A DNA stretch of 46,929 bases from Ignavibacteriales bacterium (GTDB taxonomy: Bacteria > Bacteroidota > Ignavibacteria > Ignavibacteriales > Ignavibacteriaceae), in NCBI GenBank assembly GCA_014727845.1, contig WJMR01000221.1, positions 1-46,929 on the forward strand, given 5' to 3'. Made by a program: the position numbers and the translations under genes. Positions 34,950 to 42,406 of this stretch are shown here, in pieces; within the stretch, counting starts at the first letter, position 1; every line of letters begins with the position of its first letter. The notes under the pieces were generated by a model. That model ran no database searches. It was not told the origin of the DNA and saw only the letters and a program-made list of their open reading frames with translations.

Positions 34950-35456
34950 TTAAACGAGATACAGATAGGGCTTCCAGCGTTCGTCCAAAAGGTTGACGGA
35001 ATTTCGGATGAACAGGATGTGCGTCGGTTTATAGGGTTTCACGCGCAATGTCATATTCGTTTCCGAAAGCAGCCGGTCGCCTTTTCTGTTGTTGCAAATG
35101 TGACACGCCGCCGCGAGATTCTTCCAGGAGTCCCGACCTCCGCGCGATTTCGGCACGACGTGGTCGATGGTCAGCGGAACGTCGCCTCTGCCGCAATAGA
35201 CGCAACGAAAGCGGTCGCGGCGGAGGATGTTCTTCCTCGTCAGCGAGACGTTCCGATACGGCGCCTTTACGTAGCGCGCCAATCGGATCACGCTGGGCCA
35301 TGGGTAGTCGCCGCTCACCGTTCGGATCGCTCGGCGCTCGTCTCGCGAGACGAGTTCGGCTTTGCGCGAAAAGACGAGCGTCGTCGCCCGCTTAATCGTG
35401 CACACCGTCAGCGGCTCGTAACTTTGATTCAGCACCAACGCTTTCGCGTTGAGCAT
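34950..35456 (-). CDS. HNH endonuclease
   Basis: ALVLNQSYEPLTVCTIKRATTLVFSRKAELV…RDRFRCVYCGRGDVPLTIDHVVPKSRGGRDSWKNLAAACHICNNRKGDRL. Confidence 0.92.
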   Translation of the reverse strand: MLNAKALVLNQSYEPLTVCTIKRATTLVFSRKAELVSRDERRAIRTVSGDYPWPSVIRLARYVKAPYRNVSLTRKNILRRDRFRCVYCGRGDVPLTIDHVVPKSRGGRDSWKNLAAACHICNNRKGDRLLSETNMTLRVKPYKPTHILFIRNSVNLLDERWKPYLYLV

Positions 35457-35585
35457 GTTCGGGACGCCTTTCGAAAGACTGAACGCGGACTCCTTTTCCG
35501 TTCCTATCCCTTTAACCCCGTCGCGTCGAACGATTAGCGACGGTAATCAAAAATACATATTTGCCAAATATAGAAATTCCAAGCG

Positions 35586-35977
35586 TAATATTACAATCCC
35601 TCCGTGATTTTCTCTCGCTCCTCGATTTGTGAGCTTGAGGCGCCCTATATAATAGATAGCAAAAAGTTCGGGCTCGGGAACGCCTATATGATCAGGAAAA
35701 CGGAGCGGCGCTCGGATTATGCGATTAAGAGATGTATGGATAGCCAACAGTCCGGAGTGTTGAGATTCTCAACAAAATATCGACCTGAATTGACGAGTGT
35801 GTTGAAATATCACACACATATAAAGGAGCGCCGAAAAATTGTGTATGAAATTTCAACAAAGTGGGTTTTCAGAGGATTCGGAGGGGGAAAGGAAAATGCT
35901 TGTATGATATTGTTATATAAGTGGATATGATGTGTCGCGTCCTCACTCCGAATTTTGGCACGGAGGTTGTAATATTA
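35586..35977. repeat. AT-rich island bounded by imperfect terminal inverted repeats (MITE-like or regulatory)
   Basis: Left 35586-35606 TAATATTACAATCCCTCCGTG; right 35959-35977 CACGGAGGTTGTAATATTA (reverse complement TAATATTACAACCTCCGTG); interior clearly more AT-rich than flanks. Confidence 0.65.
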
Positions 35978-36027
35978 GTGGCGTAAGCGAAAACAACTAC
36001 ATAACCTCTAAATAAAGGAATAAGAAA

Positions 36028-36231
36028 ATGGTCGCTATCTTTGTTGTTCTGACGTTCGCAACCTTCATCGCCGTTGATCTGATTGTCTTCCGCAAAAAAT
36101 GGGCGAAGACGCTTAGCGACGCTCCCGGCACGGCTGAAGTCGCCGGCGACAAGCTCTACAACATTCCCGAAGTTGGCTTGACGATGGCGGACGGTCAACC
36201 CGAAGAAGAAGACGAAGAGAAAAACCAATAA
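36028..36231 (+). CDS. Small single-TM acidic-tail protein, paralogue A
   Basis: MVAIFVVLTFATFIAVDLIVFRKKW…NIPEVGLTMADGQPEEEDEEKNQ; RBS AAAGGAATAAGAAAATG; tail shared with 36292..36495. Confidence 0.82.
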   Translation: MVAIFVVLTFATFIAVDLIVFRKKWAKTLSDAPGTAEVAGDKLYNIPEVGLTMADGQPEEEDEEKNQ

Positions 36232-36248
36232 CAACGACATAGTTCGGA

Positions 36249-36271
36249 CGCGCGGTCCTCGCGACCGCGCG
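36249..36271 (+). promoter_or_regulatory. Strong intergenic hairpin between the two small-protein paralogues
   Basis: CGCGCGGTC-CTCGC-GACCGCGCG, perfect 9-bp stem, 18 nt after stop of A; no T-tract. Confidence 0.7.
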
Positions 36272-36291
36272 AACGCGAAAGGAGCAAAACA

Positions 36292-36495
36292 ATGGTACTC
36301 GTATTGGCTATTATCGGAACCGCCTTATTGATGGGCGCGGGATATTTGATCTCGAAGAATAAGTCGCTCGCCGCGATGCGCGAAACGCCCGGCATGGGCG
36401 AAGCCGCGAGAGGCGAAACGATGCAAAACGTTCCGGAAGTCGGGCTTACGATGGCCGACGGCAAGCCGGAAGACGACGCCGAAGAGAAAAAGTAA
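36292..36495 (+). CDS. Small single-TM acidic-tail protein, paralogue B
   Basis: MVLVLAIIGTALLMGAGYLISKNKSL…NVPEVGLTMADGKPEDDAEEKK; RBS AAAGGAG. Confidence 0.82.
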   Translation: MVLVLAIIGTALLMGAGYLISKNKSLAAMRETPGMGEAARGETMQNVPEVGLTMADGKPEDDAEEKK

Positions 36496-36555: not shown

Positions 36556-37254
36556 ATGAGAACCTACAACAATTATCAATGTGTGTGGACGACGTCGAAG
36601 AGCGTCGAGTATCACCACTGCGATCGAAATTTTGACTGCGACGGATGCGAGTTCGACCGTCGGATGCGGGAGAAGCTGAGCCGCGACCGCGACCGCGAAC
36701 GAGGCGACGTCGTCTCCAAGGCGATCGCCGCGCTGGAAAGCGAGCGCTTCGAGACCTTCTATAAGTATCTGCCGAACGGTCTGTTCGCCAAGCCGCTCTT
36801 CGGGAACGCCTTCTATATCGGCGTATCCCCGACGGCGAGACACACGCTCGACAACGTTACCTCCGTCCGCGTTCCCAACAAAGGGAAGGACGTCGGGGCG
36901 GGAGAGACGCTCTTCCGACTCGAAGGCGAATGGGGTTCCGCCGCCGTCCTCGCGCCGATCGATTGCCGATTAGTGGACGCCGCCGACGAAGACAAATCGC
37001 CCGACTTATCCAAATGGATCGGATTGCTCGAGACCGATAAAAGCGTCGAACGGCTCGCCCTCGACGCCGATGGATTCGATCGGGAACGCGCCGCCGCCAA
37101 AGAGTTCTTGAGCGCCTACGCCGTCGAGGAGGTCGATCTACCGACCACGACGATGTTCGACGGCGGAGAACTAGCGACCTTCCTCTACCAAGTCGTCGGC
37201 GCACAAAACTATCTCCGCTTCCTCGAAGAACGATTCGGGGGAAAGACGATCTAA
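36556..37254 (+). CDS. Cys-rich N-terminus plus GcvH-like (biotinyl/lipoyl-like) domain protein
   Basis: YQCVWTTSKSVEYHHCDRNFDCDGCEFDRRM followed by FGNAFYIGVSPTARHTLDNVTSVRVPNKGKDVGAGETLFRLEGEWGSAAVLAPIDCRL. Confidence 0.78.
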   Translation: MRTYNNYQCVWTTSKSVEYHHCDRNFDCDGCEFDRRMREKLSRDRDRERGDVVSKAIAALESERFETFYKYLPNGLFAKPLFGNAFYIGVSPTARHTLDNVTSVRVPNKGKDVGAGETLFRLEGEWGSAAVLAPIDCRLVDAADEDKSPDLSKWIGLLETDKSVERLALDADGFDRERAAAKEFLSAYAVEEVDLPTTTMFDGGELATFLYQVVGAQNYLRFLEERFGGKTI

Positions 37255-41760: not shown

Positions 41761-42406
41761 ACCGATTTTGGCTATCGAGACTTCCGGCGCGCGATGCGCC
41801 GCGGCGGTGCGTATAGACGAGGAGACGACGTTCGAGATCGACGCGACGGCGCCGCGACGGTGCGCGGAGAAGATAGCGACGGTCGTCGAGCGCGCGCTCG
41901 AACTTGCGGAGGCGGGATTCGACGATCTCGGCGCCGTCGCCGTCTCGGCGGGACCCGGCTCGTTCACGGGGTTGCGCATCGGGATGTCCTTCGCCAAGGG
42001 CGTCGCGTTTGCGAGGAACCTGCCGATCGTCCCCGTTCCCACGCTCGAAGCGATCGCTTTGGAAATCCTCCCCGTCGTTCCCGACGGCGCGGAGTTCGCC
42101 GTCGCCAATCGCGCCGGTTCGCGGGACGCCTACTTCGCCGCGTTTCGAAAAGACGGAAATATTTATAACTTTGTGGGTTCGCCCGTCGTCGTCGGATTCG
42201 ACGACTTGGCGGAGCGGACGGCGGGCGCGACGCTCTTCGGCGAGCGATCGTCGAGCGGAGCGTTCGCCGCGCCTCGCGCTTCGACGGTCGCCGAGTGGGC
42301 GAAGAGATTCGGCGAGGAACACGCGACGTGCGACGCGGATTTTCCGGAACCGAACTATTTAAAAGACTTTATCGTTAAGAAACGGAAAAAGAAATCCGAA
42401 CTATGA
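41753..42406 (+). CDS. tsaB: tRNA t6A biosynthesis protein TsaB
   Basis: [41 protein letters not shown]. Confidence 0.94.

Follow-up and report, generated by a model that had tools for sequence, protein, structure and literature searches.

The AT-rich island at 35457-36027 is most probably the region that controls the small-protein cassette beginning at 36028. We read it as a predicted sigma-54 promoter preceded by three predicted sites for an NtrC-type activator, which would act on the promoter through DNA looping and would be the regulator encoded on contig 79; we put the probability of this reading at about 0.88. The island lies in a window of 46,929 nucleotides (the whole stretch of DNA that was analyzed), where an earlier note had proposed either a MITE-like element or a long-range regulatory structure possibly supplying the cassette promoter. 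The promoter part of that second suggestion held up: the right arm of an inverted repeat coincides with the predicted promoter, and the predicted activator sites lie between the two arms. The long-range stem did not.

Predicted promoter and upstream sites

The features of the island and its flanks are as follows, in window coordinates.

34950-35456, minus strand: divergent gene for an HNH endonuclease-family protein, which the family conserves among different neighbors
35567-35596, minus strand: possible weak sigma-70-like promoter, TTGTAA-N18-TATATT (also TTG-N21-TATATTTG), directed at the HNH gene
35586-35606, minus strand: left arm of the inverted repeat, 21 nt including a 2-nt bulge (TC)
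35639-35660, no strand assigned: GGCGCCCTATATAATAGATAGC, which holds a 15-bp dispersed motif and is probably separate from the promoter
35758-35774, no strand assigned: predicted activator site 1, perfect palindrome TGTTGAGATTCTCAACA, the sole exact TGTTGA-N5-TCAACA in the genome
35800-35816, no strand assigned: predicted activator site 2, TGTTGAAATATCACACA, which keeps one of its two half-sites and follows site 1 at a spacing of 42 bp
35842-35858, no strand assigned: predicted activator site 3, TGTATGAAATTTCAACA, likewise with a single intact half-site, spaced 42 bp beyond site 2
35956-35971, plus strand: predicted sigma-54 (RpoN) -24/-12 promoter TGGCACGGAGGTTGTA, TGGCACG-GAGG-TTGTA (GG-N10-GT)
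35959-35977, plus strand: right arm of the inverted repeat, overlying positions -24 to -5 of the predicted sigma-54 promoter
36014-36020, plus strand: RBS-like AAAGGAA ahead of the first cassette gene, called from sequence
36028-36231, plus strand: small protein 1, 67 aa, with an N-terminal membrane anchor and the C-terminal motif of the GcvH-like first operon gene, lacking the lipoyl-like domain
36292-36495, plus strand: small protein 2, 67 aa, with similarity both to small protein 1 and to the small gene that opens the operon of one relative (L080)
36556-37254, plus strand: GcvH-like protein, 232 aa, related to gene 4 of the Ignavibacteria operon

The consensus for sigma-54 promoters is TGGCAC-N5-TTGCW, with GG-N10-GC as its minimal form (Barrios et al. 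1999, in the passages quoted by PMC9993120 and PMC6510779). Read on the plus strand with a few bases added, the right arm is TTGGCACGGAGGTTGTAAT, a -24/-12 element of this type with correct spacing. Its -24 box, TGGCACG at 35956-35962, contains the GG, while the properly spaced -12 box, TTGTA, carries GT in place of the consensus GC. The same GT is found at -12 in two orthologous loci, L103 and L111; it appears to be tolerated in the orthologous set, and the promoter may be weak. The element ends 56 nt before the ATG of the cassette, and transcription would be predicted to start near 35982. The genome encodes rpoN on contig 418, where both PF04552 and TIGR02395 score above cut-off.

How distinctive is this match? 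An exact TGGCAYRNNNNTTGYW occurs at 35956 and nowhere else in the window, and it is one of 3 in the 3.4-Mb genome. The pattern alone is not significant genome-wide, since a reversed control gives 4. Hence, the argument for a promoter rests on position and conservation. Sigma-54-like sites were also seen elsewhere. At L181 (G000:C263:27156-27171), a good element, TGGCATATTAATTGCT, stands soon before a gene beginning MARKATVLIDKELCKGCELCVIACPLEG (ferredoxin-type), which is likely another RpoN target. Near the match at 10258-10273 in L182 (G000:C288), a sigma-54-like site is preceded by several tandem ATATTGAGG/GCGCCCTC palindromic units, possibly another short repeat family.

Upstream of the promoter, the three predicted activator sites begin at 35758, 35800, and 35842, exactly 42 bp apart in each case, or about 4 helical turns. 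Shuffles of the control region give 0.2 sites of comparable quality. Sites 2 and 3 each have just one intact half-site, which counts against the reading. The TGTTGA-N5-TCAACA palindrome is also present upstream of orthologous operons. We consider the three most likely to be enhancer-type sites of an NtrC-type activator.

The island also contains a dispersed motif, TATATAATAGATAGC (35646-35660), with 41 genomic copies at no more than 2 mismatches (7 of them exact), compared to 3 in a reversed control. The conserved part spans about 18 to 20 bp, is often preceded by CCTA or GGCGCC, and occurs between genes and apparently inside them. It is not a long repeat, and it is not obviously a promoter.

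Orthologous operons and the candidate regulator

The same arrangement is found before orthologous operons. Among 25 Ignavibacteria-type loci, which are related to one another and so do not represent 25 independent events, 23 have a sigma-54 element at -90..-45 (shuffle mean, 0.22), and palindromic sites at -300..-130 number 44 in all (against a shuffle mean of 0.44). The pattern was formed on 14 of these loci; of the remaining 11, 9 also pass. Measured from the ATG of the orthologous first genes, the sigma-54 element lies 50 to 78 nt upstream and the palindromes at about -140 to -290. In many relatives the operon encodes GcvH-like, Fe-S, and NrfD proteins together with a histidine kinase and a Sigma54_activat response regulator.

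The cassette proteins are related to products of this operon. Small protein 1 matches the N terminus and, weakly, the C terminus of the GcvH-like membrane protein that opens the Ignavibacteria operon (40% over 47 aa in a small blastp comparison with gene 1 of L078, E = 8e-7). The tandem 67-aa membrane-anchored proteins (36028-36495) resemble a reduced GcvH-like gene in which the EVGLTMADG motif and the anchor were retained and the lipoyl-like domain was lost. The 232-aa protein scores just under the cut-off of Pfam GCV_H and matches gene 4 of L082 (blastp E = 1e-28, also a small comparison). A search of genome contigs with the cassette's GcvH-like protein returned no relative.

Which regulator might bind the predicted sites? 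Many orthologous loci have two genes after the operon, one for a histidine kinase that carries a periplasmic CxxCH and one for a response regulator with receiver, Sigma54_activat, and Fis-HTH domains. The genome of the window has a full-length ortholog of this activator on contig 79, with 68% identity, compared to 48% or less for 10 other homologues, and its helix-turn-helix is conserved. The closest NCBIfam model is AtoC, with a score below that model's cut-off. On contig 79 the activator gene adjoins a kinase gene (CQPCH) and an M54-like peptidase gene; it is not adjacent to the cassette. NrfC/NrfD-like genes are located on contig 30 behind a sigma-54-like element of their own, TGGTATGGATATTGCA. 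No clear activator site was found at contig 30 or 79. The operon appears to be split in this lineage. From the linkage in relatives and the conservation of the helix-turn-helix, we infer that the contig-79 regulator pairs with the three sites. In one relative's assembly (L075, 4364-5606, G076:C115), the activator gene seems to be broken in two, with the receiver in one piece and the C terminus in the other.

The inverted repeat and other readings of the island

The descriptive claims of the earlier note were borne out. The arms are present at 35586-35606 and 35959-35977, where TAATATTACAA pairs with CCTCCGTG in stems of 11 bp and 8 bp, with the 2-nt bulge (TC) in the left arm. The island is AT rich, with 43% GC in 35601-36000 compared to about 55 to 65% (around 60%) elsewhere in the window. 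No transposase was found inside it. The 108-aa frame within the island matched no Pfam family, and the island has no tRNA or tmRNA. Sampled genome regions from the same family are mostly 20 to 50% GC, with the window at about 60%.

The repeat itself is locally notable but, as the best of a 47-kb scan, not significant. Its score was reached in 1 of 2,000 dinucleotide shuffles of the 571-bp intergenic region in which it lies. However, tile-wise shuffles of the whole window gave about 2.3 tiles that match it, and a second real pair in the window, at 42072/42502, scores equally. For these two reasons, the inverted repeat taken alone is weak evidence for anything.

The reading of the island as a non-autonomous transposon (MITE), with terminal inverted repeats of 19 to 21 bp and a target-site duplication of 8 bp, can draw on the repeat, on the AT-richness, and on arms that outscore shuffles of the same region. 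It is nevertheless largely refuted already and is the least credible of the readings considered here. BLASTN of the island body across the genome it comes from (98.6% complete, 3.4 Mb), the check for further copies that the note had proposed, returned only the island itself and one 34-bp match, which is part of a short motif scattered over the genome; the right arm has no second copy in the genome at up to 3 mismatches. Both are therefore single copy. The supposed duplication, TAATATTA, is seen at both ends because TAATATTA is itself a palindrome, and its repetition is automatic. Repeats of equal score are expected about twice per shuffled window. Moreover, the right arm and the interior hold functional elements conserved at the same position before orthologous operons. 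No syntenic empty site was found in relatives; in the relative loci examined, gene order around the HNH neighbor differs, and those HNH loci yielded no alignable intergenic DNA. No alignable homologue of the island body was found.

It is very unlikely that the arms close a stem on a structured noncoding RNA or long leader of about 390 nt. The plus strand does fold better than shuffles (z = -3.8), but the z value falls to -2.6 without the arms, and shuffles are more stable than the left half (z = +1.0). Palindromes of the DNA type account for much of the remaining stability, and on the opposite strand they give z = -4.6 too. There is no match to an Rfam family. Transcription from the predicted sigma-54 promoter would start downstream of the right arm, so the RNA could not form the stem. 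Scarcely more credible than the transposon is a functional pairing of the arms, in which the left arm would be a second site for sigma-54 or polymerase, divergent and degenerate, that acts with the right arm. Here the match is specific to the pair, with an inverted promoter copy at the left arm scoring 15 against a shuffle mean of 7. As a sigma-54 site, however, the left arm scores 10.5 of 23.5, lacks the -24 GG, and has wrong spacing and a 2-nt insertion, and an inverted copy of this kind is absent from all 24 upstream regions examined at orthologous loci.

The left arm is not conserved. It overlaps the weak promoter-like match directed at the HNH gene, a sigma-70-like sequence that comes from a consensus scan alone (2 found, compared to 1.1 expected) and is not conserved upstream of relatives' HNH genes. 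We also rejected a Bacteroidetes-type -33/-7 promoter for the HNH gene: it occurs in 2 of 30 upstream regions, including the present one, the same as in shuffles. We regard the left arm as the product of chance or, alternatively, as a degenerate inverted copy. The terminal inverted repeat would then be a by-product, with the right arm serving as the predicted promoter and the left arm matching it by chance or as a degenerate inverted match.

Proposed mechanism and relation to known systems

For the preferred reading, a sigma-54 promoter under an NtrC-type activator, we propose the following. Sigma-54 RNA polymerase would bind the -24/-12 element at 35956-35971. An NtrC-type response regulator would bind the three phased palindromic sites, centered near positions -216, -174, and -132 relative to the predicted start, and would open the promoter through DNA looping in an ATP-driven step. 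The likely activator is the contig-79 ortholog, which would be under the control of the neighboring sensor kinase with its periplasmic CxxCH; the signal may be of a redox or haem type.

Such a mechanism is ordinary and the control region is of a known kind; the regulon is apparently undescribed. A limited literature search returned no description of this regulon or operon and no paper on Ignavibacterium with sigma-54. We somewhat favor the broader view that an undescribed sigma-54 regulon extends across the Ignavibacteria and partly into the Bacteroidales, in which a CxxCH (possibly haem-c) kinase and an NtrC-type activator acting on TGTTGA-N5-TCAACA control an NrfC/NrfD-like and GcvH-like membrane redox module. 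In the genome studied here, that module would be split to three places, and its first gene would be reduced to small membrane proteins.

A suspected mobile element is thereby replaced by a predicted promoter with a likely sigma factor, operator, and regulator named, and two orphan 67-aa proteins are linked with an operon of respiratory type that is conserved in the Ignavibacteria, a little-studied group. When a promoter has palindromic sites for its activator, it may mimic the anatomy of a MITE or of a structured RNA. The island does resemble MITEs and IS-derived non-autonomous elements in that an inverted repeat flanks a short AT-rich stretch; it differs from them in being single copy, in having a duplication that is no more than a palindrome, and in containing conserved regulatory elements.

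With sigma-54 promoters it shares the TGGCAC box, the TTG box, their spacing, a site upstream of the RBS, and distant palindromic activator sites, and it departs from them in the -12 GT, where the consensus has GC. The predicted regulatory pair is like the NtrC-family systems (NtrC, ZraR, and AtoC type) in its receiver, Sigma54_activat, and Fis-type HTH domains, in its paired sensor kinase, and in palindromic sites 100 to 220 bp upstream. It differs from those systems in its predicted operator, TGTTGA-N5-TCAACA, in the periplasmic CxxCH of the kinase, and in a target operon for GcvH-like, Fe-S, and NrfD proteins.
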